From NCBI GenBank assembly GCA_019240395.1, contig JAFAYM010000122.1, positions 1-56,396 of the forward strand: a stretch of 56,396 nucleotides of DNA, written 5' to 3'. The notes under the pieces were generated by a model. That model saw only the letters and a list, made by a program, of their open reading frames with translations. It made no database searches and had not been told where the DNA came from. The DNA comes from Acidisphaera sp. Its GTDB lineage: Bacteria; Pseudomonadota; Alphaproteobacteria; Acetobacterales; Acetobacteraceae. The first letter of the stretch is position 1. Every line of letters starts with the position of its first letter. The position numbers were made by a program, and so were the translations under genes. Shown here piece after piece: positions 16,530 through 28,355 of this stretch.

Positions 16530-19388
16530 GTGGAAGTCACCTCGAGGCGCACAAAATCGGAGGGCGGCTTCTCCTCCAACTCCGAGGAGGCTGATGACGC
16601 AGATGATCTGGGCCTGAGTTCGCCGATCCGGCAGGCGACCCGCGACCGTTGCGTCCTCGATTCGGTCTTCCTTGACGAAGACTATCTGTTCAAGGGATTC
16701 GGCCTGCGGCGCGCGCAGCGCCGGGAGTTCCTCGAGACCTATGACAAACTGCCGATCCAGGAGCGGCCGAATCTGTCGCCGTTCTTCGATACGCGATGGT
16801 ACCTCACGATCAATGGCGACGTCCGGACCGCCGGCCTGGACGCGTTCAGCCATTTCTGCTGGGGCGGCATAAAGGAAATGCGCTCGCCCCACCCGCTGGT
16901 CTGGCCCGGCTTCGTCCTGCCGGTGGGCTCCGAGTTCCAGGATTGCAGCGAACCGCTGGCGGCACTTCGCGAGGCTCTCGAGAACAATACGCGCGCGCCG
17001 AACTCCTATTTCGAACTCGACTACTATCTCGAGAGGTGTCCTGGCGCAGCGACACACCCCGGAGGGGCCTTGAGGCACTTCCTGGAAGCGCCGCTGATCG
17101 AGCTCGTCATTCCGAACCGCTACTTCGATCCGGCCTGGTACCAGGAGCGCTACCCCGACGTGCCGCGCGATCCGCGTGCCGCCTTCCTTCACTTCGCGAC
17201 CCAGGGTGATCGGGAGAAGCGGGTCCCGGGGCCGGCTTTCGACCCGGAATACTATCTCTGGAACAACCCCGACGTGGTGCAGGCCGCGGTGCCGCCGCTG
17301 GAGCATTTTCTTATTTCCGGCGAGAAGGAGGGCAGGCGGCCGACCAGCAATGCGGCGATCGGCCTGCGCGGGCCGACGCGGCAGCCGAGCCACCCGCACC
17401 CCACGCCGGGTGAGGCGCTCCCGGACATTGCGGAAGGTCGGACGCGGTACCGCAACCTGCGCACCCTCATCGCAGAGCGCCGCCACGCGCGGAAAGTGGC
17501 GTTTGCCGAGAGGGAAGCACGCCCGGTGGTGGTGCGCGACATCAACGCCGCGATCGCGCAATTGCGTTTCCCGCGCTGCAAGCGTCCGCGGGTCTCGATC
17601 ATGGTGCCGTTCTACAACGAGATGAAGGTCACGGTCGAATGCCTGACCTCGGTGATGCGCTGCAAGCCCGCCTGCGGCTACGAGATCATCGCCGCCGATG
17701 ACTGCTCATCTGACGAGCAGGCGCGGCTGCTGTCGAAGGTCCCCGGTCTGCTCCACCTGCGGCAGCCGGCGAACGTGAATTTCCTGAAGAACTGCAACGA
17801 GGCGTTTGCGCGCCTGAAGGGCGAGTACGTTCTCCTGCTGAACAATGATGCGCAGCTCTGCGAGGGCGCCATCGACGAACTCGTCGCGGCGCTCGACCAG
17901 GATCCCGGGCTGGGCGCGGTCGGACCGAAGATCCTGTTTCCCGACGGACTGTTGCAGGAGGCCGGCTGCGCCATCAATCGCGACTGCACCTCGACGATGG
18001 TTGGGCTTTGGGAAGACCCGGACGCAGACCGCTTCGGCTATCCCCGGGACGTCCACTATGTCTCCGGCGCCGTGCTGATGTTCCGGCGATCGCTGGCGCG
18101 CGAGAGGCTGTTCGACGAGGCGCTGGCGCCGGCGTACTGCGAAGACCAGGATCTCTGCCTCGACATCGCCGCCAAGGGCTTTCGCATCCGCTACGTCCCG
18201 ACCGCCACGGCGGTGCACCATCTCAGCGTCACCATGGCGAACCGGCAGCAGAAGCTGCGGCGGATCCATGCCAACCAGCAGAAGCTCTCGGAGAAATGGG
18301 GCGAGCAGCTCGACGCGATGAACCGGGTGCGCACGATCGCCTTCTACCTCCCGCAATTCCACCCGATCGCGCAGAACGATCTCTGGTGGGGTGCCGGATT
18401 CACCGAGTGGACGAATGTCGCCAAGGCGCAGCCGAGCTACGCCGGGCACTACCAGCCGCATCTCCCGGCGGATCTCGGCTTCTACGATCTGCGCGTCGCC
18501 GACGTGCTCCGCCAACAGGCGAAGCTCGCCGATCGTTATGACCTCGCGGGATTCTGCCTCTACTATTACAATTTCGGTGGCGAACCGATACTGAACGGGC
18601 CGCTCGAGACGGTGCTGCGCCATCCCGACATCCCGTTCAATTTCTGCCTCTGCTGGGCCAACGAGAATTGGAGCCGGCGCTGGGACGGCGGCACCAACGA
18701 TCTCCTGCTTGAACAAAGCTATGACACGGCCACCCTGGACAGACTGGCGCAGGATGTCGGCAAAGCCACCCGCGATCCCCGTTACATCAGGGTGAACGGC
18801 GCGCCGGTGCTGCTCATCTATCGGCCCCTGCTGATCCCCGAGCCGGGGAAGACGGTGGCGCGCCTGCGGCGCTCGGTGCGGGAGGCGGGGGGCGGCGAAC
18901 TGCACCTCGTCTTTGTCGAGAGCATGGAGTCCGTCGACAGCGGCGTCGACCCATGCGAACTCGGGTTCGATGCGGCAGTGGAGTTTCCGCCGCAAGGCTC
19001 TGGCGTTCGCGCCATCGACGAGCGCGAGGTCTACAAGCCCGACTGGGACGGCCGGCGCTATGACTATGAAAGCACCGCCCTGAAGGCGGTGCTCAATCGA
19101 GCGCCCGGCTATCCCCGCTATCCCGCGGTCTTCCCGTCCTGGGACAACACGGCGCGCCAGCCGCTGCGCGGGTCATCCTTCGACAACGCCTCGCCCGAGT
19201 GCTTTCAGGCCTATGCCGAGGAAAAAATCGAGGAGTGCAAGAACTTCTTCGTCGGCGAGGCCCGCCTGCTGTTCGTCAACGCCTGGAACGAGTGGGCGGA
19301 AGGCGCGCATCTGGAGCCGGACCGGGCGTACGGCCACCGCTGGCTGGAGGCGCTTCGCCATGCGCTGTTCCGCCAGGGCTGCGCGTGA
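16530..19388 (+). CDS. Three-part glycan enzyme: repeat domain, GT2 glycosyltransferase, WbsX-like domain
   Basis: A 952-residue cytoplasmic protein. Residues 85-250 contain four copies of a motif FDxxxYLxxNPDV (for example FDPAWYQERYPDV and FDPEYYLWNNPDV). Residues 350-590 are a GT2 domain: VSIMVPFYNEM, ADDCSSDEQ, LLLNNDAQL (DxD-like) and CEDQDLCLDIAAKG. Residues 600-945 match the WbsX/GT99-like domain of LPS O-antigen genes: IAFYLPQFHPIAQND, FTEWTNVAKA, CWANENWSRRWDG and NAWNEWAEGAHLEPD. It should transfer sugars to a surface polysaccharide. Starts with GTG, GGAG ten bases upstream. First gene of the locus. Confidence 0.88.
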   Translation: MEVTSRRTKSEGGFSSNSEEADDADDLGLSSPIRQATRDRCVLDSVFLDEDYLFKGFGLRRAQRREFLETYDKLPIQERPNLSPFFDTRWYLTINGDVRTAGLDAFSHFCWGGIKEMRSPHPLVWPGFVLPVGSEFQDCSEPLAALREALENNTRAPNSYFELDYYLERCPGAATHPGGALRHFLEAPLIELVIPNRYFDPAWYQERYPDVPRDPRAAFLHFATQGDREKRVPGPAFDPEYYLWNNPDVVQAAVPPLEHFLISGEKEGRRPTSNAAIGLRGPTRQPSHPHPTPGEALPDIAEGRTRYRNLRTLIAERRHARKVAFAEREARPVVVRDINAAIAQLRFPRCKRPRVSIMVPFYNEMKVTVECLTSVMRCKPACGYEIIAADDCSSDEQARLLSKVPGLLHLRQPANVNFLKNCNEAFARLKGEYVLLLNNDAQLCEGAIDELVAALDQDPGLGAVGPKILFPDGLLQEAGCAINRDCTSTMVGLWEDPDADRFGYPRDVHYVSGAVLMFRRSLARERLFDEALAPAYCEDQDLCLDIAAKGFRIRYVPTATAVHHLSVTMANRQQKLRRIHANQQKLSEKWGEQLDAMNRVRTIAFYLPQFHPIAQNDLWWGAGFTEWTNVAKAQPSYAGHYQPHLPADLGFYDLRVADVLRQQAKLADRYDLAGFCLYYYNFGGEPILNGPLETVLRHPDIPFNFCLCWANENWSRRWDGGTNDLLLEQSYDTATLDRLAQDVGKATRDPRYIRVNGAPVLLIYRPLLIPEPGKTVARLRRSVREAGGGELHLVFVESMESVDSGVDPCELGFDAAVEFPPQGSGVRAIDEREVYKPDWDGRRYDYESTALKAVLNRAPGYPRYPAVFPSWDNTARQPLRGSSFDNASPECFQAYAEEKIEECKNFFVGEARLLFVNAWNEWAEGAHLEPDRAYGHRWLEALRHALFRQGCA

Positions 19389-19415
19389 TGCCCGCCCTGG
19401 TGGACGACCGGGGCG

Positions 19416-19449
19416 CGGGCTGAACGCCCGACCGGCCTGCGAACGCCGG
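19416..19449 (+). terminator. Pair of small GC-rich hairpins after the GT2-WbsX gene
   Basis: CGGGC/GCCCG (19416-19430) and CCGGC/GCCGG (19432-19449) form two short adjacent stems 28 bases past the stop codon. There is no clear T-run, so this may weaken rather than end transcription. Confidence 0.3.
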
Positions 19450-19535
19450 CCGGACCGAATTTCCGATTAATTGACGAACCGCTGTGCAGATGGACCGGAG
19501 GCTTTGCGGCCCGCACGGCATTCCGGAGGAGCCTG

Positions 19536-20282
19536 ATGGCAGACGGCGGGGGGACGACATTCCTGGAAGTCCAGGGCAGGTGCCCGATCTGCGGTCCGGA
19601 CGCGACGTTCGCCGCCAGCAGCACCTGGCTGCGCGACAGCTTCGCCTGCACGCGCTGCCACTCCCTGCCCCGCGAGCGCGCCGTGATGGCGGCAATCGAG
19701 ATGTTCGTGCCGCAATGGCGCGACAAGCTGATCCACGAATCCTCGCCGGTCTGGCGCGGCGTCAGCGCCCGGCTGCAGCAGGACGCCAAGGGCTACTCGT
19801 TTTCCTATTTCGATCACACCCGCCCGCTCGGCGGCCCGCATTTCGTGAGCGGGGCGGTCAACCAGAACATCGAGTCCATGACGTTCGAGGACGCCAGTTT
19901 CGACCTCTTCCTCACCCAGGACGTGTTCGAGCACATCTTCCGCCCCGACCTGGCGATCCGCGAAATCGAGCGTGTCCTGAAGCCTGGCGGCCACACCATC
20001 ATGACCGTGCCGATGGTCAACCGCGAGCAGCCGTCGGAGCGCCGGGCCGCGCTCGAAGGCGACACCGTCCGCCACATCAAGCCGGCCGCCTATCACGGCG
20101 ACCCGGTGAACGCTGATGGTACCCTGGTGACCTTCGACTGGGGCTTCGACGTCTGCGCCTATTTCAGCAGCTGGAGCGACCTGCGCGGATCGATGCTGAT
20201 CATCGACGATCTCGGCCGCGGCATCCGCGCCGCCTACAACGAAGTCATCGTCATGCGCCGGGGTCCATGGCCACCGCTCTAG
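19536..20282 (+). CDS. Methyltransferase-fold protein with N-terminal zinc-ribbon-like pair
   Basis: A 248-residue protein. The N-terminus carries CPICG and CTRCHSLPRERA, a likely four-Cys zinc site. The rest is a class I methyltransferase fold: FEDASFDLFLTQDVFEHIFRP and IERVLKPGGHTIMTVP are Methyltransf_11 hallmarks. The usual SAM loop (GxGxG) is replaced by LIHESSPVWRGVSARL, a pattern I have seen in a family next to glycosyltransferases. Preceded by a strong GGAGGAG. Likely modifies a sugar or polysaccharide end; SAM use is not certain because of the altered loop. Confidence 0.8.
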   Translation: MADGGGTTFLEVQGRCPICGPDATFAASSTWLRDSFACTRCHSLPRERAVMAAIEMFVPQWRDKLIHESSPVWRGVSARLQQDAKGYSFSYFDHTRPLGGPHFVSGAVNQNIESMTFEDASFDLFLTQDVFEHIFRPDLAIREIERVLKPGGHTIMTVPMVNREQPSERRAALEGDTVRHIKPAAYHGDPVNADGTLVTFDWGFDVCAYFSSWSDLRGSMLIIDDLGRGIRAAYNEVIVMRRGPWPPL

Positions 20283-21433
20283 CCAAGCCTGCCGAGAGCA
20301 GGACGGCGAGCAGCGTCACCGTCGTCGGCCACCCCTTCTCGACGGTCGGCATGGGCGAGCAGGCACGCGCCGGGTTCCGCGCCCTGCAAGCCGCCGCCGT
20401 GCCGGCGAGCGTGCACGACGTGTTCCGCTACACCCGCCGCGGCGATCCCGATTTGCGCGACCTGGTCCTGCTGCACGAAGAATCGGTGGTGCCGGCCGGG
20501 GGCGTCCGGGTCTTTCACATCAACGGCGACGAGGTCGGATCGGTGCTGGAGGCATTCGCCCAAAGCTCGGACTTCGCCGCCGGCTACAACATCATCGTGC
20601 CGGCATGGGAACTTCCCCGCTACCCCGATATCTGGAAGCCCCAGCTGCAACGTTTCGACGAGGTCTGGGCGATTTCGCACTTCGTCCGCTCTTCGATCGC
20701 CGCAGCCGGCCTGGCGGTCCACCATGTCGGCCAGTCCGTCGAGGCGGATTTCGGCAATCACCTGCCGCGGCGCTTCTTCGACATACGAGAGTCTGCCTTC
20801 GCGCTGTTGTCCCAGTGCGACACCGCGTCCTACATCTCTCGCAAGAACCCGTTCGCGGTGATCGAGCTGTTCACCCGCTTCCGCAAACTCCGGCCCTTCG
20901 ACGATGTCCAGCTGGTGCTCAAGCTGCGCGCCGGTGATTGCGATCTGCAGGAGGATTTCATCCGTCCGGCAGACCTGCCCAGGGGCACCGCATTGCTGCG
21001 CGAGAACTATTCCAGCTATGCCGCGCGCAGCCTTATCGAGTGCTGCGATTGCCTGCTCTCGCTGCACCGCTCCGAGGGCTTCGGACGCGGCATGGGAGAG
21101 GCGATGATCTCGGGAAGGCTGGCCCTGGCGACCGGCTGGTCGGGCAATTGCGACTATATGACGGAGGAGAACTCGCTGCTCGTCCGCTACACCCTGATCG
21201 ATGTGAAGGAGGGAGAATATCCCCACGCCGCCGGCCAGCAATGGGCCGAGCCGGATATCGATCATGCGCTGCATCTGCTGCTGAAGGCGCTCGACGATCC
21301 GTCCTGGGCGCGCCAGATCCGCCGGCGCGGCCGGCTGGACGCGAGCCGCACCATCAGCAACCGGAGCGTCGGCCTGCGCATGCTGGCGCGCCTGCGCAAC
21401 GCCTGCACCGAACGCGGCCTGGCCTTGCCATGA
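20267..21433 (+). CDS. Glycosyltransferase, GT-B fold (GT4/GT1-like)
   Basis: A 388-residue glycosyltransferase overlapping the methyltransferase gene by 16 bases. The N-terminal half has VTVVGHPFSTVGMGEQAR, typical of nucleotide-sugar GT-B enzymes. The donor-binding C-terminal half has LIECCDCLLSLHRSEGFGRGMGEAM, the E-x7-E type motif, then GNCDYMTEENSLLV. No signal peptide; expected at the cytoplasmic face of the membrane. Sugar and acceptor are unknown. Confidence 0.85.
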   Translation: MATALAKPAESRTASSVTVVGHPFSTVGMGEQARAGFRALQAAAVPASVHDVFRYTRRGDPDLRDLVLLHEESVVPAGGVRVFHINGDEVGSVLEAFAQSSDFAAGYNIIVPAWELPRYPDIWKPQLQRFDEVWAISHFVRSSIAAAGLAVHHVGQSVEADFGNHLPRRFFDIRESAFALLSQCDTASYISRKNPFAVIELFTRFRKLRPFDDVQLVLKLRAGDCDLQEDFIRPADLPRGTALLRENYSSYAARSLIECCDCLLSLHRSEGFGRGMGEAMISGRLALATGWSGNCDYMTEENSLLVRYTLIDVKEGEYPHAAGQQWAEPDIDHALHLLLKALDDPSWARQIRRRGRLDASRTISNRSVGLRMLARLRNACTERGLALP

Positions 21434-21488
21434 TCGCTCCAGCCCGTGACCTCGCAGTGGCGCTCGCCTCGCACCCGGAATCCGGCGC

Positions 21489-22853
21489 GTGAGCGAGCGA
21501 AGCGCCTGGCTGGAGATGGACTTCCTTCCCGGGGGAGATGCCGGCGCCCGCCTCGGCGAGGGCTGGTCGTTTCAGGAAGACGGCGGCATCTGGGCGGTCG
21601 GGCCGGCCAGCGCGATCACGCTGCCGCCGGCGCCGTCTGCCGAGCGTGGACGGCTGGAGTTCTTGTGCTGGCCGATGCTCATGCCGCCGCATCTGCCGCG
21701 CCAGCGTCTGGAAATCCTGCTGAACGATCGCCCCCTTTACAGCGGCGAACTGACAAGTCTCGAGCCGGTACGCATCGGCTGCGACATCCCTCCCGGCACG
21801 CTGCGCAGCGATGGCGAGAACCGGCTGGCGCTGCTGCATCCGGATGCGGCCGCTCCCGCCGCCTTCAGCCCGGATCGGGGCGACCGGCGACCACTCGCCA
21901 TCTTGGCCATGGCGCTGCGCATCGATGCTCCGGTCGAGACCCCGGCCGAACTCCAGCCGGCAGCGGTGCAAGCCGATGCACAGGGTCCGACGGGACGCGG
22001 ACTGGTGCTGTGCAGCTTCAGCCCGGTGGCGTTCGAGATCGGCCGCATCCTGGATTCCTTTCCGCCCTTCGAGGACGCGTTCGAGCTGCGCTTCGTGCAG
22101 AACGACGTCGACTCCGGAAACATCCTGCAGACGCTGGCGGAAGCCGATCGCCGGCGCGTCGTCGCGGTGTGGGAGGAAGTGGCCGATCGCCCCGCCGAGC
22201 CGTACACCAATTCCCGCCACCCCATCCCGCGCTCGATCGCGCGCGTCAGGTTTCCGCGACTGACGATGCGCTGTCTATGGCCACTGGCGGGGCCCGACCC
22301 GAGATCGGTGCCCGAGCCGCCCTTCTATCCGAAGGGGCGCTATACCCACACCGACGGCGCGGCGCTGCAACTGCTTGACGAAGCGAAGCTCGCCGACGCC
22401 GCGCTGTACGACCGCTATATCGCGGTCTCGCACGCGATGCTGCGCGATCCCGAGAGCGGCCTCGCCGAGGATGCCGCGCGCTGGCGGGCGCTGGATGCAC
22501 GCTGCGACGTCAAGGTGACCGGCTTCATCCTGGAGAATTTCCGCTCGGTCGCGCTGTTCTACGCCCCGGAGGTTCCGGCCGGCGCCTTGCTCGCCTATGT
22601 CACCGAGCACCTGCTGGCCAGCCTGCTGCCCGGATTGGCGATGCGCCCGTCGGAATTGTACCGGCAGTTCGCCTTCTACATCCACGGGTATGCCGGATCG
22701 TTCTTCGATCAGGCGCCGATCCATCCCGCGCTCGTCGAAACATTCGGCTTGTCCTACCTGCCGGCGGAGCCGCGCTATCGGCGCGGCTACGGCGCGCGGA
22801 CCTTCCGGGAGCATATCCTTGACTACATCCGCTGGGCTCCATGGTTTTCCTGA
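21489..22853 (+). CDS. WcbI-like protein lacking the active-site NCQ motif
   Basis: A 454-residue protein starting at GTG 21489. Residues 1-160 are an extra beta-rich domain of unknown type. Residues 165-454 align with the WcbI-like protein encoded next: VAVWEEVAD, RVRFPRLTM and LWPLAGPDPR match VCVWEQIS, IRFPALTAS and IWPFAAPDPR. Where that protein has YANCQADHL this one has SFSPVAFEI, so the Cys thought to act in WcbI acyl transfer is missing. It may be a non-catalytic partner or bind a glycan through the extra N-terminal domain. Confidence 0.72.
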   Translation: MSERSAWLEMDFLPGGDAGARLGEGWSFQEDGGIWAVGPASAITLPPAPSAERGRLEFLCWPMLMPPHLPRQRLEILLNDRPLYSGELTSLEPVRIGCDIPPGTLRSDGENRLALLHPDAAAPAAFSPDRGDRRPLAILAMALRIDAPVETPAELQPAAVQADAQGPTGRGLVLCSFSPVAFEIGRILDSFPPFEDAFELRFVQNDVDSGNILQTLAEADRRRVVAVWEEVADRPAEPYTNSRHPIPRSIARVRFPRLTMRCLWPLAGPDPRSVPEPPFYPKGRYTHTDGAALQLLDEAKLADAALYDRYIAVSHAMLRDPESGLAEDAARWRALDARCDVKVTGFILENFRSVALFYAPEVPAGALLAYVTEHLLASLLPGLAMRPSELYRQFAFYIHGYAGSFFDQAPIHPALVETFGLSYLPAEPRYRRGYGARTFREHILDYIRWAPWFS

Positions 22854-22884
22854 AACTGCCGCCTTCCCGGTGAACGAGACTTCG

Positions 22885-23862
22885 ATGGACAAACGCTTGG
22901 GGAACGAAAGCTTCGGGGATGAAAACCTCGGCGGCGAAAGTTCTGCCGATCCTTCCCCGCTGGCGGCTCCGGCCGTCACCGCCTCGCGCCGGTCGGCGAA
23001 ACCCGTCCTGCTGATCTACGCCAATTGCCAGGCCGATCACCTCGCAAAGGTGCTCCCCCGGGTGCCGGAAGCCGCCGACCAGGTTGCCGTGAAATACCTG
23101 TTCATCCACTCGCTCGAGGAGCCCGGGCTAACCTGGGACACCTATCCCAGCGACTACCTCGACGGTGTCACCTGCGTCTGGGAGCAGATAAGCGAAGCGT
23201 TCCCGGGGCCGCGCGAAGAGCTGCATCGGCGCCTGCCCTCCGGGGTTCGGCGGATCCGCTTCCCCGCGCTGACCGCGAGCATGATCTGGCCCTTTGCCGC
23301 TCCCGACCCGCGCCCCTCGAAGCGCAACCTGTACATGTACGGCGATTCCATCGCTGCGCGCCTGGGTATGCGCCTCGCCGGGAAGCTCGTCACTGACGAC
23401 GAGATCTTCGAAGAATACATGGCGGTCAGCAGCCGGCGGATGCCGGACCTCGACCGCCGGCTCGAGCTCGAGGAATGGGCATGGCGCAAGCGTGACCTGG
23501 AGTCCGACTTCGCGGCGGCGGACTACCTGCACGCCAATTTCCGGCGCACCCAGCTCTTCTATGAGCCGGGGCGGATCACCCGCGACCCGCTGCTCTATCT
23601 GATGTCGCAGCTGGTGCTGGCGACCTTCGACGGTCCCTGGAGCGGCGGTGCGGAGATCCTGGCCGCCTTGCAGCAGCTCCTCCGCTATCACGTCGGATAC
23701 GACACGATCAGCCAGCCCGTGCATCCCATGGTTGCGGAGCGGCTGAAACTGCACTGGTACGATCCGGAAGCGCGCTATCGCTGGTTTGCGCACGACTGGA
23801 GCTTTCGTGAGTGGGTCGTGCGCTGCGTGCGATTCACGCCGTACGTCGCGACTCTTTACTAG
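22885..23862 (+). CDS. WcbI-type polysaccharide acyltransferase
   Basis: About 325 residues with LLIYANCQADHLAKVL, the signature of WcbI-type capsule acetyltransferases; the Cys is residue 48. Further conserved segments are VCVWEQISE, IRFPALTAS and IWPFAAPDPR. The first 30 residues are a polar, repeat-like leader. The start is either ATG 22885 or GTG 22870, neither with a strong ribosome site. WcbI is known to bind CoA; here the donor could instead be the ACP encoded 4 kb downstream (inference). Tandem paralogue of the preceding gene. Confidence 0.78.
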   Translation: MDKRLGNESFGDENLGGESSADPSPLAAPAVTASRRSAKPVLLIYANCQADHLAKVLPRVPEAADQVAVKYLFIHSLEEPGLTWDTYPSDYLDGVTCVWEQISEAFPGPREELHRRLPSGVRRIRFPALTASMIWPFAAPDPRPSKRNLYMYGDSIAARLGMRLAGKLVTDDEIFEEYMAVSSRRMPDLDRRLELEEWAWRKRDLESDFAAADYLHANFRRTQLFYEPGRITRDPLLYLMSQLVLATFDGPWSGGAEILAALQQLLRYHVGYDTISQPVHPMVAERLKLHWYDPEARYRWFAHDWSFREWVVRCVRFTPYVATLY

Positions 23863-23898
23863 CGCGCGCATGCAAATGCACTGCATCATGGCGTCGAG

Positions 23899-25311
23899 AT
23901 GAACAATTCATTGATTGAATCTCGCATTTCGGGATATATGGACGGCGTCAATTCCACCATGCAGGTTTCCCGGATGCCGGCTCGCGGCGGCGACCGCCTT
24001 CCCCTTGTGTTCATGGACGAGAGCGGCTTTCACGAAGGCGTTCTCGCGAACTTCAAGGGGGTGATCTCGGCGTGCCAGGTTTCGCCACTGGTGAAATACG
24101 GCGAGTTTTCCTCGGGTCGCCGGCAATTCGTGCACCGGCGCCTCGGTGAACTCGGCGACGACAAGGGCTACCTCGTGCTTGGCCTTTTCGGCAATCCGAC
24201 CAACTGGTTTGGCGCCGACGGCACGGGCACGCCGCCGCTGTCCCAGTTGATCCCCGATCTGCGGCCGCTGCTGGACCGTCACCGCGGCTTGCAGCTGCTC
24301 ATCGACTATTCGTGGGAGGCCGGGCTCGGCGAGGGCTTCTTCTCCGGCATGGATGCGTTCCTCCGCGACATCGGCGTCGATCCCGGTCGCGTCGTCGTCC
24401 TGGTCTCCAACCAGGGCATCGAGGAGCGGCTGGTGCGCTATCTCCGGGCCCAGAAACGCGAGGCCTCGCGCTGCTTTCGCGTCATCGGCGCCGATCTCTG
24501 GCTGATGTATTCGGCCGTCGAGCTCCAGCGCAAGCACTGGTACGGGGCGCCGGAAACCCTGGTGCTGGAGACCGAGATCGAGGCGCGGTGCCGTACCCTG
24601 CGGCCGCGCAAATTCCTTTCCTTCAATCGCCGGCCGCGCTGGCAGCGCTTTCTTTTCGCCCTCATGGTCGGTCGCCTCGGCCTGGAGCGGCAGGCCTTCA
24701 TCTCGATGTCCAGCCCGGAGTATCGCGGCGACTGGGTGCCGGAAGACAGCCGCATCGACGAGTACGGCGCGCTGATGTCCGGCGATCGCTGGCGCGCCCT
24801 GAAGTCGGTGCGCGAGCGGGTATTCGCCAGCCTCCCCTGGACGATCGACATCAACATGGACGCCCATAGCGGCCGGCCGGAAGCCTACCTCTATCACACC
24901 CAGGACCGGCAACTTTTCCTCGACAGCTACAGCCAGGTAATCACCGAGAGCTACATGGAGGGTGAGCCGGTGGACGTGTTCATCACCGAAAAGACCTGTC
25001 GCGCGCTCGGCAATCTTCAGCCCTTCCTCGTCTTCGGGCATTCCGGAATGTTGCGCCGGTTGCGCCAGCACGGGTTCGAGTCCTCCGCGTTCTTCGACGA
25101 CACCTATGACGGGATCGTCGATCTGGGAGAACGCCTGGATCGGCTCTATGACGCCATGGAGGAGCTGAGCGCTGCCTCCATTCGCGATCTGCACGAGCGC
25201 TATCACGCCGATCTCGATGTGCTGCGGTTCAATCGCCGCCGGCTGTTCGAGATGCCGGAGGTGCTGGCGGAGCGGGTGGCAGCGCGGCTGCACGCGGAAC
25301 TCTGGGCCTAG
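23899..25311 (+). CDS. Uncharacterised glycan-locus protein
   Basis: A 470-residue soluble protein I cannot place firmly. It has a central PRKFLSFNRRPRWQRFLFAL stretch and a C-terminal segment VFITEKTCRALGNLQPFLVFG followed by LRQHGFESSAFFDDTYDGI. The ITEKT...PFLVFG pattern resembles the donor-site region of fucosyltransferase-like (GT10-like) and phage-island glycosyltransferases, so a GT-B type transferase is possible. No signal peptide or membrane segment. Sits between the WcbI-like genes and the repeat protein in the same orientation. Confidence 0.62.
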   Translation: MNNSLIESRISGYMDGVNSTMQVSRMPARGGDRLPLVFMDESGFHEGVLANFKGVISACQVSPLVKYGEFSSGRRQFVHRRLGELGDDKGYLVLGLFGNPTNWFGADGTGTPPLSQLIPDLRPLLDRHRGLQLLIDYSWEAGLGEGFFSGMDAFLRDIGVDPGRVVVLVSNQGIEERLVRYLRAQKREASRCFRVIGADLWLMYSAVELQRKHWYGAPETLVLETEIEARCRTLRPRKFLSFNRRPRWQRFLFALMVGRLGLERQAFISMSSPEYRGDWVPEDSRIDEYGALMSGDRWRALKSVRERVFASLPWTIDINMDAHSGRPEAYLYHTQDRQLFLDSYSQVITESYMEGEPVDVFITEKTCRALGNLQPFLVFGHSGMLRRLRQHGFESSAFFDDTYDGIVDLGERLDRLYDAMEELSAASIRDLHERYHADLDVLRFNRRRLFEMPEVLAERVAARLHAELWA

Positions 25312-25494
25312 CAGGTTTCCATGCAGCGCTCTACCCCCTCGGCAACTCGACGTAAATCCGGCCGTGCTAATTCCCAAGGTCGGTCCCCCCGAGATGAGAC
25401 CCCCGAGGATCTGACAACCGCCGAGCGCGCGAATCCGGGGGTGAGCGAGCGGCGTCCCGAGCCAATTTCTCCAGCACAGGTAGCAAGAAGCGAG

Positions 25495-26010
25495 ATGGCA
25501 CCGAAGAGCAACGCAAAAGAGATGGTCGATCCGACGCCGATGCAGGCGGAGCCGGGGTTCTTTCCCTGGCCCGATGACTTCGCCGACTATGTCGGCGTGC
25601 CGTTGGAGGAATTCCGGGGACCACGGAAGGTTCTCGTCGGCCTCGACGTCCTCAGGCTGCTGATCGGGATGGCGGCGACGGCCGCCTCCTTTGACGAGGA
25701 GTTCTATCTCGAGCGCAACCCCGACTTGCGCAGGGCGGTGAAGCAGGGCGAGCTGACGGACCCTCGCGCCCATTTCCTCAGCGACGGCTACTTCGAGCGC
25801 CGCCCGGCGTCGCGCAAGCTGCTCTCTCCCGTCAATGAGAGCTGGTACCTCAAGCAGTACGCCGACGTTGCGGAGGGAATGAAGGCAGGCAAGGTGGATT
25901 CCGCGACCCACCATTACATCACCACGGGGCGCAAAGAGGGCCGGGTGCCGTCCGACGATCTTCCCGCCGAGATCCGGCGCCTGCTGGACCTGCTGCACTC
26001 GGGCGTCTGA
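25495..26010 (+). CDS. FDxxxYLxxNPDx repeat protein
   Basis: A 171-residue protein with two copies of the motif found four times in the GT2-WbsX enzyme: FDEEFYLERNPDL near residue 66 and NESWYLKQYADV near 113. A hydrophobic helix (VLRLLIGMAATAASF) precedes the first copy. ATG 25495 has AAGAAGCGAG upstream; an in-frame ATG at 25321 would add a basic, low-complexity leader that looks non-native. No catalytic motif is seen; a scaffold or docking role with the GT2 enzyme is inferred from the shared repeats. Confidence 0.65.
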   Translation: MAPKSNAKEMVDPTPMQAEPGFFPWPDDFADYVGVPLEEFRGPRKVLVGLDVLRLLIGMAATAASFDEEFYLERNPDLRRAVKQGELTDPRAHFLSDGYFERRPASRKLLSPVNESWYLKQYADVAEGMKAGKVDSATHHYITTGRKEGRVPSDDLPAEIRRLLDLLHSGV

Positions 26011-26029
26011 GGCGGAATCAGCCGCGGGG

Positions 26030-27919
26030 ATGACAACCGCGCCGAGCCTGCACTGGCTGCCGGAGACCGAAGACTGGCGACCCCAACTCTCGGCGCTGCG
26101 CGCCATGCCGCCCTCGCTCGAGTCCTGGAACACGGCGATCGCGCTGGCCAACACCCGGCTCGACTTCGTGCGCACGAACGCGCTCGATGCCGCGGTTCGC
26201 GAGCTGTTCGGCGATACGCCTCCGGATGGCCTCGCGGCAAAGCCGGTGCGTCTTGCCGTGCTCGGCTCCTCCACGCTGGCGCATCTGCACGCCGGGCTGC
26301 GCGTCGCGGCGCTGCGGCGCGGAATCCCGCTCGTCACCTACGAGAACGAGTACGGTCAGTATCGCGGCGAATTGCTGGATGCCGCGTCGGGCCTGCACGC
26401 GTTTCGGCCGAGCGCGGTGCTGTTCGCCTTCGATTGCCATCATCTCGCGGCCGGCCTTCACGCCGGGATGTCCGCCGCCGGGGCCGAGGCCGCGCTGGAG
26501 CGTGTGCGCGAGGAAATGCTGCTGTGCTGGCGCGCGGCGCGCGAGGCGTTTCGCTGCCCGGTCCTGCAGCAGACGGCGCTGCCCGCGCTGCCGGAGCTGA
26601 TCGGCGGCAACGAGCACCGGTTGGCTGGATCGCGCGCCGGCTGCATCGCCCGGATCAACGCCATGCTGCCGAGCCTGGCCGATGCCGAGGGAGTGGACCT
26701 GGTCCGGCTCGATGCACGGGCCGCGCGGGACGGCATCGCCGCCTGGCACGACGCGGTACTCTGGGCGCGCGCCAAGCAGGAAGTCGCGGTGGCCGCCGGC
26801 CCCGTGTACGGCGAGCTCGCGATCCGGCCGATCGCGGCGCGGCAGGGGCGGTCGGCAAAGGCGCTGGTGCTCGACCTCGACAACACGATCTGGGGCGGCG
26901 TCATCGGCGACGACGGCCTCGAGGGCATCGTGCTCGGCCAGGGCAGCGCGCTCGGCGAGGGCTTCCTCGCGGTCCAGCGCTATGCCCTCGAGCAGTCGCG
27001 CCGCGGCGTCATACTCGCGGTCTGCTCCAAGAACGACGAAGCCAACGCCGCCGAGGCGTTCGACCGGCATCCCGAGATGCTGCTCCGGCGCGACCATGTC
27101 GCCAGCTTCGTCCTCAACTGGAACGACAAGGCGGCCAATCTGCGCATCGTCGCCGAGGAGCTGAATATCGGGCTGGACGCATTGGTGTTCGTCGACGACA
27201 ACCCGTTCGAGCGCACGCTGGTCCGCCGGGAGCTGCCGATGGTGCTGGTGCCGGAAGTCCCGGCCGACCCGGCGCTGGTGCCTCAGGCACTCGCCGACGC
27301 GGGCTATTTCGAGGCCGTCGCGATCACCGAGGATGATCGCCGGCGCTCGCAGCAATACCAGGGCAATCGCGCCCGCGCCGCGCTGGCCGCTTCGGCCACC
27401 GACATGCAGGGTTACCTGCGCAGCCTCGAGATGCAGCTGCTCTGGCGGCGCTTCGATCGGGTCGGCCTGCCGCGCATCGTGCAGCTCATCAACAAGACCA
27501 ACCAGTTCAATCTCACGACCCGCCGCTACACCGCGGAAGAAGCGCTCGCGGTCATCGGGGATGCGCGGGCCCTCGGCCTGCAGCTGCGGCTGCTCGACCG
27601 CTTCGGGGACAACGGCGTGATCGCCGTCGTCATCGGCCGCCTCGACGACGACGGCGATCTGCAGATCGATACCTGGCTGATGAGCTGCCGCGTCCTCGGC
27701 CGCGAGGTGGAGGCGGCAACCCTCAATCTGCTGGCCGCCCAGGCCTGCGCGCTCGGTGCGCGGCGGCTGGTCGGCGAGTATCGCCAGACCCCGAAGAACG
27801 GGATGGTGCGAGACCATTATGCCAGGCTCGGCTTCGTGGCGCTCACCGAGACCACGAGCGTGCTCGAGCTCGAGCGCTTCGCGCCGCTGGCGAATTGCAT
27901 CGAGACCAGGGAGGGCTGA
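26030..27919 (+). CDS. FkbH-like HAD-IIIC enzyme with GNAT-like C-terminus
   Basis: A 629-residue protein of the FkbH family. Residues 1-270 form the N-terminal domain (VRLAVLGSSTLAHLH); 275-430 are the HAD domain, with motif VLDLDNTIWGGVIGDDG (Asp282, Asp284), CSKNDEANA, NWNDKAANL and VFVDDNPFERTLV; 440-629 include INKTNQFNLTTRRY and a GNAT-like acyl-transfer fold. FkbH proteins take 1,3-bisphosphoglycerate (or a similar C3 phosphate) and load a glyceryl or lactyl group on an ACP. An ACP gene starts three bases after the stop, which strongly supports this role. Confidence 0.85.
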   Translation: MTTAPSLHWLPETEDWRPQLSALRAMPPSLESWNTAIALANTRLDFVRTNALDAAVRELFGDTPPDGLAAKPVRLAVLGSSTLAHLHAGLRVAALRRGIPLVTYENEYGQYRGELLDAASGLHAFRPSAVLFAFDCHHLAAGLHAGMSAAGAEAALERVREEMLLCWRAAREAFRCPVLQQTALPALPELIGGNEHRLAGSRAGCIARINAMLPSLADAEGVDLVRLDARAARDGIAAWHDAVLWARAKQEVAVAAGPVYGELAIRPIAARQGRSAKALVLDLDNTIWGGVIGDDGLEGIVLGQGSALGEGFLAVQRYALEQSRRGVILAVCSKNDEANAAEAFDRHPEMLLRRDHVASFVLNWNDKAANLRIVAEELNIGLDALVFVDDNPFERTLVRRELPMVLVPEVPADPALVPQALADAGYFEAVAITEDDRRRSQQYQGNRARAALAASATDMQGYLRSLEMQLLWRRFDRVGLPRIVQLINKTNQFNLTTRRYTAEEALAVIGDARALGLQLRLLDRFGDNGVIAVVIGRLDDDGDLQIDTWLMSCRVLGREVEAATLNLLAAQACALGARRLVGEYRQTPKNGMVRDHYARLGFVALTETTSVLELERFAPLANCIETREG

Positions 27920-27922
27920 GCC

Positions 27923-28168
27923 GTGACCCAGGCGGAGATCTACGCGGGGCTGACCGAACTCTTCCGCGACATCTTCATGCGCGATGACCTGGTGCTGACC
28001 CCCGAGATGACGGCGCGCGATGTCGAGGGCTGGGATTCGATGCGGATGATCGAAATCATCATGGCGGTCGAGCAGCAGTATGACTTCAAAATGCAGTCCA
28101 GGGATCTCGACACCCTGCAATGCGTCGGCGATCTGGTGGGCGCCATCGAGCGGCACGCGGCCAGGTAA
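27923..28168 (+). CDS. Acyl carrier protein
   Basis: An 81-residue stand-alone ACP. The phosphopantetheine site is Ser39 in GWDSMRMIEI, in the usual DS-M/L context, followed by helix III (DLVGAIERH). Starts with GTG three bases after the FkbH stop, so the pair is co-translated. It likely carries the three-carbon group loaded by the FkbH-like enzyme rather than serving fatty-acid synthesis. Confidence 0.87.
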   Translation: MTQAEIYAGLTELFRDIFMRDDLVLTPEMTARDVEGWDSMRMIEIIMAVEQQYDFKMQSRDLDTLQCVGDLVGAIERHAAR

Positions 28169-28205: not shown

Positions 28206-28251
28206 CCAAAGGCATTGCCTTTGGTGGGGGTCGAGGGGGCGAAGCCCCTCG
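28206..28251 (+). repeat. Double-hairpin intergenic repeat, copy C (diverged stem)
   Basis: First hairpin CCAAAGGC/GCCTTTGG (28206-28224, ATT loop) is perfect but has a different sequence from the CTGGGGCC stems of copies A, B and E. Second hairpin CGAGGGG/CCCCTCG (28232-28251), one bulged G. Same linker and trailing CCTTCC as copy A. Located 37 bases after the ACP gene. Confidence 0.75.
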
Positions 28252-28355
28252 CCTTCCCCTCACAAAATCCTTCCGCTGGAAGCGCGAACCCACTAAGTAC
28301 GGCTTCCCGATTCGATCGCATCCAGCGGTCGATCCAGAAGGAGCGATCATCCCCA

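Follow-up and report, generated by a model that had tools for sequence, protein, structure and literature searches.

FkbH paired with an acyl carrier protein (ACP) is already known from polyketides, and WcbI is known from one capsule. FkbH-like enzymes make glyceryl-ACP from 1,3-bisphosphoglycerate (1,3-BPG) in tetronate pathways, and a standalone ACP accompanies FkbH in the polyketide clusters for tetronates and methoxymalonate (FK520, tetromadurin; PMC7489565). WcbI from the Burkholderia pseudomallei capsule had its structure determined in 2013, with coenzyme A (CoA) bound in the cleft (4bqn/4bqo), the thiol lying at Cys14 and the acyl group hydrogen-bonded to Cys14 and His201. It was proposed to use acetyl-CoA; Vivoli et al. 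detected no acetyltransferase activity and postulated a partner that presents the acceptor, and an ACP is not mentioned in their paper (PMC4104973). Here we describe a nine-gene operon (g1 to g9) at positions 16530-28168 of a 56,396-nucleotide stretch of Acidisphaera sp. DNA (the window), which makes up one entire contig of an Acetobacteraceae draft genome of 4.5 Mb. In this operon an FkbH (g8) and an ACP (g9) stand with a tandem pair of WcbI-fold proteins, WcbIa (g4) and WcbIb (g5). On balance, we lean towards the reading that the operon builds a glycan and decorates it with an acyl group donated as a carrier-protein thioester, FkbH and ACP supplying the donor, WcbIb carrying out the transfer and WcbIa serving as its partner.

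Compared with the tetronate and methoxymalonate clusters, the window lacks a polyketide synthase (PKS), a FabH-like tetronate enzyme and FkbI/FkbK-type dehydrogenases, whereas it has glycosyltransferases and WcbIs. With the capsule WcbI, g5 has in common the predicted fold and the active-site Cys, and both lie in glycan loci; the window differs in its degenerate/catalytic tandem, the domain resembling a carbohydrate-binding module (CBM), the link to an ACP and acyl loader, and an Arg at the His201 position. ACP-dependent glycan acylation has been proposed before for the O-polysaccharide of Flavobacterium psychrophilum (wfpC-wfpG), where a predicted dedicated ACP likewise donates an acyl group to a glycan precursor via a glycan acyltransferase; that system differs in its fatty-acid-like acyl pathway and PglD-type transferase, and FkbH and WcbI are not mentioned (PMC6519341). 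ACPs also occur in flagellin glycosylation islands (PMC4875605, PMC7874193). In Campylobacter jejuni, flagellin bears di-O-methyl glyceric acid on pseudaminic acid (PMC3068675, PMC4975691) and the flagellin glycosylation locus holds an FkbH-domain gene, cj1302 (PMC7099621); the glycan there is a pseudaminic-acid flagellin glycan, and in the available text of these papers FkbH and glyceric acid are not connected and WcbI is not mentioned. In the literature searched, outside which most subscription papers lay, no paper was found that links a polysaccharide pathway to FkbH-ACP, or an ACP to WcbI. The FkbH-ACP-WcbIa-WcbIb combination, its recurrence and the catalytic/degenerate split of the pair appear to be new.

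The two WcbI-fold proteins differ at the predicted active site. WcbIb scores 45.1 bits against PF18588 (cut-off 29.2 bits), and its AlphaFold model (mean pLDDT 84) has WcbI 4bqn as top match in the PDB (Foldseek, E 4.5e-10, TM 0.61-0.63). WcbIa, at 19.6 bits, falls below the same cut-off, and its model (mean pLDDT 74) likewise finds WcbI first (4bqo, E 1.2e-7), with an N-terminus that resembles CBM35/36 modules and BcsB in the Foldseek comparison. An N-terminal domain of about 140 residues without Pfam match is carried by WcbIa in most loci that have the pair. In an alignment of 29 proteins, the active-site Cys was present in all 18 WcbIb or single WcbI proteins and in none of the 11 WcbIa, and the His201 position was occupied by His in 14/18 and 0/11, respectively. 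Since both residues are absent from every WcbIa, we call g4 a WcbI-fold protein rather than a WcbI enzyme and, to judge from the alignment, the first protein of the pair is a degenerate paralogue. An earlier note on this DNA, made from the sequence alone, had spoken of WcbI-type acyltransferases; g5 belongs to the WcbI family by score, fold and Cys, and the plural was overstated, as g4 has the WcbI fold without the catalytic-site residues. With its CBM-like domain and its place next to a catalytic paralogue, WcbIa would fit the partner proposed for WcbI.

A jelly-roll domain of about 140 residues with the pattern GWSxxE..TW and no Pfam match was seen at 21513-21926 of the window and in three further loci, L043 (5597-8225), L044 (7396-8595) and L051 (7084-8235; L numbers are our own). 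About 110 matches occur in 46 of 145 relatives, mostly apart from FkbH and WcbI, and the domain was rejected as module-specific and is regarded only as a common accessory domain. Beside FkbH-ACP it is fused to a second domain without Pfam match, SLGxxCExGxxQR..AEPLGLLRF, which we take to resemble DUF1796.

The loader and carrier both score above the cut-offs of their families. The FkbH of the operon reaches 297.8 bits against NCBIfam TIGR01686 (cut-off 146.65), its residues 57-435 align with PDB 3slr (E 1.3e-59), and FkbH_N (PF21211) scores 25.2 bits against a gathering score of 27. The HAD aspartates D282, D284, D389 and D390 and the transferase-domain C553 are present in g8 and invariant in 40/40 FkbHs; g8 is the only FkbH in its genome. 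The ACP matches PF00550 (PP-binding) with 35.9 bits (cut-off 20.8), and the Ser39 of its WDS motif is invariant in 14 ACPs. Pfam revealed no FabH, acyl-ACP synthetase or other acyl loader besides FkbH in the operon, and Pfam and NCBIfam no enzyme for further oxidation of glyceryl-ACP. From its family membership, g8 is predicted to load a glyceryl (or lactyl) group onto the ACP.

The evidence for a functional link is comparative. When 84,980 species genomes were scanned with a profile of WcbIb, nine loci came up, of which one held a single distant WcbI. The counts cover 11 non-redundant loci with a pair and 29 with a single WcbI, mostly from draft metagenome-assembled genomes (MAGs) of one family, with genes predicted by a simple caller and an ACP profile built from the same loci. 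FkbH was found within 6 kb in 7/11 pair loci, whereas none of the 29 single-WcbI loci had it (Fisher p 1.8e-5); for an ACP within 3 kb the fractions were 9/11 and 4/29, respectively. These 13 WcbI loci with an ACP at ≤3 kb compare with 0.4 expected from the background in the same loci; the ACP of the window lies 4.1 kb from WcbIb, so that 10/11 pair loci have an ACP at ≤4.1 kb. The query had been built from the window and four pair loci, and in the six pair loci outside it the ACP was present in 6/6 and FkbH in 5/6, the sixth reaching the contig end.

The earlier note had suggested a survey of WcbI, FkbH and ACP co-occurrence. The linkage was found again in further genera and families, with the genes rearranged. 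With a and b denoting the pair, the order is FkbH-ACP-a-b in Endobacter medicaginis, ACP-FkbH-a-b in Caulobacter sp. S45, and a-b-ACP-FkbH in two Rhodopila MAGs and another Acetobacteraceae MAG (an opposite-strand gene intervening in two cases). A second contig of this last, non-Rhodopila MAG reads a-b-FkbH-ACP, the sister species of the window genome has ACP-a-b, and in one more locus the contig ends just past a-b-ACP. The four genes form an uninterrupted run in L114, L115 and L118, and no further candidate acyltransferase separates them. Outside these families, plasmid NZ_CP025615.1 of Niveispirillum cyanobacteriorum (Azospirillaceae) is annotated at NCBI with a contiguous HAD-IIIC family phosphatase, acyl carrier protein and WcbI family acetyltransferase, the FkbH and ACP being 52% and 45% identical to those of the window. 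In a tree of 40 FkbHs, those linked to a WcbI pair fall in two well-supported clades and force at least four label changes (support values being rough), indicating that the association arose or was exchanged repeatedly and did not come about by simple inheritance. A survey of the class found WcbI in only 7/385 genomes, so that Acetobacteraceae, together with Caulobacter and Niveispirillum, form the main basis of the conclusion.

In the mechanism that we propose, FkbH would dephosphorylate 1,3-BPG and place the glyceryl group on the phosphopantetheine of the ACP, probably via its conserved Cys, a chemistry taken from what is known of the family; the group may also be lactyl. WcbIb, whose Cys is predicted to face a CoA/pantetheine-binding cleft as in the solved homologue, would take the acyl group from the ACP and pass it to a sugar hydroxyl. 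WcbIa would act as its partner by presenting the acceptor glycan made by g1 and g3, and g2 may O-methylate the sugar or a hydroxyl of the acyl group. The chain would run from 1,3-BPG to glyceryl-S-ACP and, through WcbIb/WcbIa, to a glycan that bears a glyceryl ester. What we observe is the set of genes, the residues, the predicted folds and the recurrent neighbourhood; from there we infer that WcbIb makes the transfer, what part WcbIa plays, which acyl group is involved and that a surface glycan is the product. If true, glycerate would have a route to surface glycans, and FkbH chemistry known from polyketides would also serve envelope glycans. Moreover, the recurrent FkbH-ACP-WcbIa-WcbIb set makes the donor and partner question of WcbI directly testable with four proteins of harmless bacteria.

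Several findings weigh against this mechanism. Arg replaces His201 in g5, as it does in the proteins of L112 and L115; g5 stays a member of the WcbI family on score, fold and Cys, His not being universal above the family cut-off. (As a mark of FkbH-linked WcbIb proteins the Arg was rejected, for L114, L116, L117 and L118 keep His.) The B. pseudomallei WcbI binds free CoA with a Kd of 58 µM (PMC4104973), which suits a CoA donor. Within the operon WcbI and ACP are 4 kb apart. The window genome has nine WcbI matches, including three tandem pairs, on contigs C284 (the window), C185 and C82, and the C82 pair (L037) has no ACP or FkbH nearby. The pairs of L036, L038 and L113 have an ACP and no FkbH in the stretch examined, 25/29 single WcbIs are without an ACP, and FkbH-ACP occurs without WcbI in about 20 relatives, so that FkbH-ACP does not require WcbI.

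In a rival explanation, FkbH charges the ACP with glyceryl or lactyl, g6 or an enzyme elsewhere makes the transfer, and the WcbIs are separate acetyl-CoA O-acetyltransferases acting on the same glycan. FkbH-ACP without WcbI stands beside an MBOAT (L060) or other proteins, ACP-FkbH likewise adjoins an MBOAT in Rhodobacteraceae SC52 and S. meliloti, the solved WcbI binds CoA (PMC4104973), and a pair free of ACP and FkbH exists. We nevertheless judge this arrangement unlikely, as ACP and FkbH accompany the WcbIa-WcbIb pair far more than they do other WcbIs, and do so repeatedly with FkbHs from different clades, and the contiguous genes of L114, L115 and L118 leave no other candidate acyltransferase between them. 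That the ACP bears an ordinary fatty or hydroxy-acyl chain, with FkbH a phosphatase or scaffold, is highly improbable in our view: in about 20 relatives, as in the window, FkbH is the immediate neighbour of the ACP, the HAD aspartates and the transferase-domain Cys are invariant, and the operon has no other loader by Pfam. It does find support in L095, where the ACP adjoins a WcbI with an AMP-ligase and no FkbH, making other acyl groups possible.

A further alternative concerns the product, which might be a small glycosylated metabolite, a glycolipid or a glycoprotein glycan with a glycerate-derived unit rather than a surface polysaccharide. The C. jejuni flagellin glycans with di-O-methyl glyceric acid and the fkbH-domain gene cj1302 of their locus, as far as the available text goes, are consistent with this, as is the isolation of the operon: no flippase, polymerase, chain-length or ABC export gene was found in the nine genes or the scanned flanks, other contigs not having been searched. 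We hold this alternative to be improbable, since the contig contains no ORF of PKS or nonribosomal peptide synthetase (NRPS) size, and elsewhere nucleotide-sugar and polysaccharide genes accompany a WcbI locus. The GT2-WbsX, GT-B and WcbI families are, moreover, typical of surface polysaccharide loci.

The proposal of the earlier note that an FkbH-charged ACP feeds a WcbI-type enzyme is partly supported by the recurrent neighbourhoods, the two FkbH clades and the retained HAD aspartates and Cys of FkbH; it lacked the catalytic/degenerate WcbI pair, the ACP-WcbI loci without FkbH, and the fact that FkbH-ACP is mostly found without WcbI. ACP and WcbI are immediate neighbours, and the stretch examined contains no FkbH, in L036 and L040 of the window genome and in L038, L095, L097 and L102. 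Two of these ACP-WcbI loci without an FkbH gene are L040 (G000:C110, 2823-3984) and L036 (G000:C185, 1881-4495), and our guess is that the single FkbH of the window genome charges the C110 and C185 ACPs in trans. In L095 (G060:C24, 55-3678) an AMP-binding ligase with a DIP2-like C-terminus, an ACP and a WcbI are contiguous, and the ligase may be a further kind of loader for an ACP that neighbours WcbI.

Teichoic acid D-alanylation by DltA-DltC-DltB employs a dedicated carrier protein, an adenylation-domain loader and a membrane MBOAT transferase on an envelope polymer. The window, by comparison, has FkbH and WcbI. Where FkbH-ACP occurs without WcbI, it lies beside an MBOAT or beside other proteins carrying the jelly-roll domain. 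The ACP-FkbH-MBOAT sets of Rhodobacteraceae SC52, S. meliloti pSymB and an Acetobacteraceae genome (L136, 6494-11347; L137, 8661-13695; L060, 8335-13090, the last being the Acetobacteraceae one) are closer to Dlt in appearance, and look like a Dlt-like transfer of the FkbH-made acyl group. The picture is one of loaders and transferases interchangeable around a dedicated ACP. Extending this to the WcbI family, we raise only tentatively the possibility that it consists partly of ACP-dependent glycan acyltransferases with interchangeable loaders (FkbH, AMP-ligase), in which case the postulated partner would have its counterpart in a degenerate paralogue of WcbI that presents the acceptor by means of a fused carbohydrate-binding domain.

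The nine genes of the operon are listed in Table 1. All lie on the + strand with short gaps or overlaps between neighbours, the g2/g3 overlap being 16 bp, the g8/g9 gap 3 bp and the largest gap 147 bp (g1/g2). This agrees with the earlier description of nine genes in one direction, and GT2-WbsX, methyltransferase, FkbH and ACP were borne out by Pfam/NCBIfam, GT-B only sub-threshold. The absence of a PKS, also claimed earlier, stood: no PKS domain was found in the nine genes (Pfam, NCBIfam), and no ORF on the contig has the size of a modular PKS or NRPS, the longest other ORF being an RND pump. The operon stands alone among unrelated metabolic and efflux genes, with a dipeptidase, DAO and 3HCDH upstream and a glyoxalase, DyP peroxidase, P450 and the RND pump downstream.

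Table 1. Genes of the operon, with positions in the window
Gene	Position	Strand	Assignment	Family matches not given in the text
g1	16530..19388	+	Bifunctional glycosyltransferase: N-terminal YPDV..HY..GxxEGRxP repeats, GT2 domain 356-471, WbsX domain 603-942	WbsX PF14307 395.5 bits; GT2 PF00535 63.5 bits
g2	19536..20282	+	Class I S-adenosylmethionine methyltransferase	PF08241 47.2 bits
g3	20267..21433	+	GT-B (GT4-like) glycosyltransferase, weak assignment	GT-B sub-threshold in Pfam (14-15 bits, correct location); phrog_2170 glycosyltransferase (phage family) E 8e-6
g4 WcbIa	21489..22853	+	N-terminal CBM/BcsB-like jelly-roll domain and WcbI-fold domain without Cys/His site	
g5 WcbIb	22885..23862	+	WcbI family; Cys48 (= WcbI Cys14) kept; Arg at His201 position	
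g6	23899..25311	+	470 aa, almost orphan, family unassigned	
g7	25321..26010	+	Small repeat protein; repeats common to g1 N-terminus	
g8 FkbH	26030..27919	+	FkbH_N-like domain, HAD-IIIC domain (DLDNT), C-terminal transferase domain with invariant Cys553	
g9 ACP	27923..28168	+	Dedicated acyl carrier protein; WDS(39)M phosphopantetheine site	

The protein encoded by g6 has no match in Pfam, NCBIfam, PHROGs, the PDB or plasmids, and one weak relative (26%) among 145 related genomes; its C-terminus may be GT10-like. No family match was obtained for g7 in Pfam or NCBIfam. The short repeats that it has in common with g1, of the form F/WYxxxxPDVxxA..HFxxxGxxEGRxP, span 16530-17400 at the g1 N-terminus and 25495-26010 in the standalone g7, and small g7-like proteins adjoin FkbH-ACP in L047 and L051.

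A link of FkbH-ACP with VOC/glyoxalase proteins was considered: the window has a VOC gene downstream, and three plasmid loci have one close to FkbH. It was rejected, as the VOC protein of the window is at best a remote relative of the plasmid ones (E 1e-4) and none occurs in the other loci. A scan for sigma-70 promoters gave no hits, a result of little weight in this organism. Just 3' of the ACP gene, at 28206-28255, lies a 50-bp palindromic dispersed repeat, of which the genome holds six copies with at most one mismatch.

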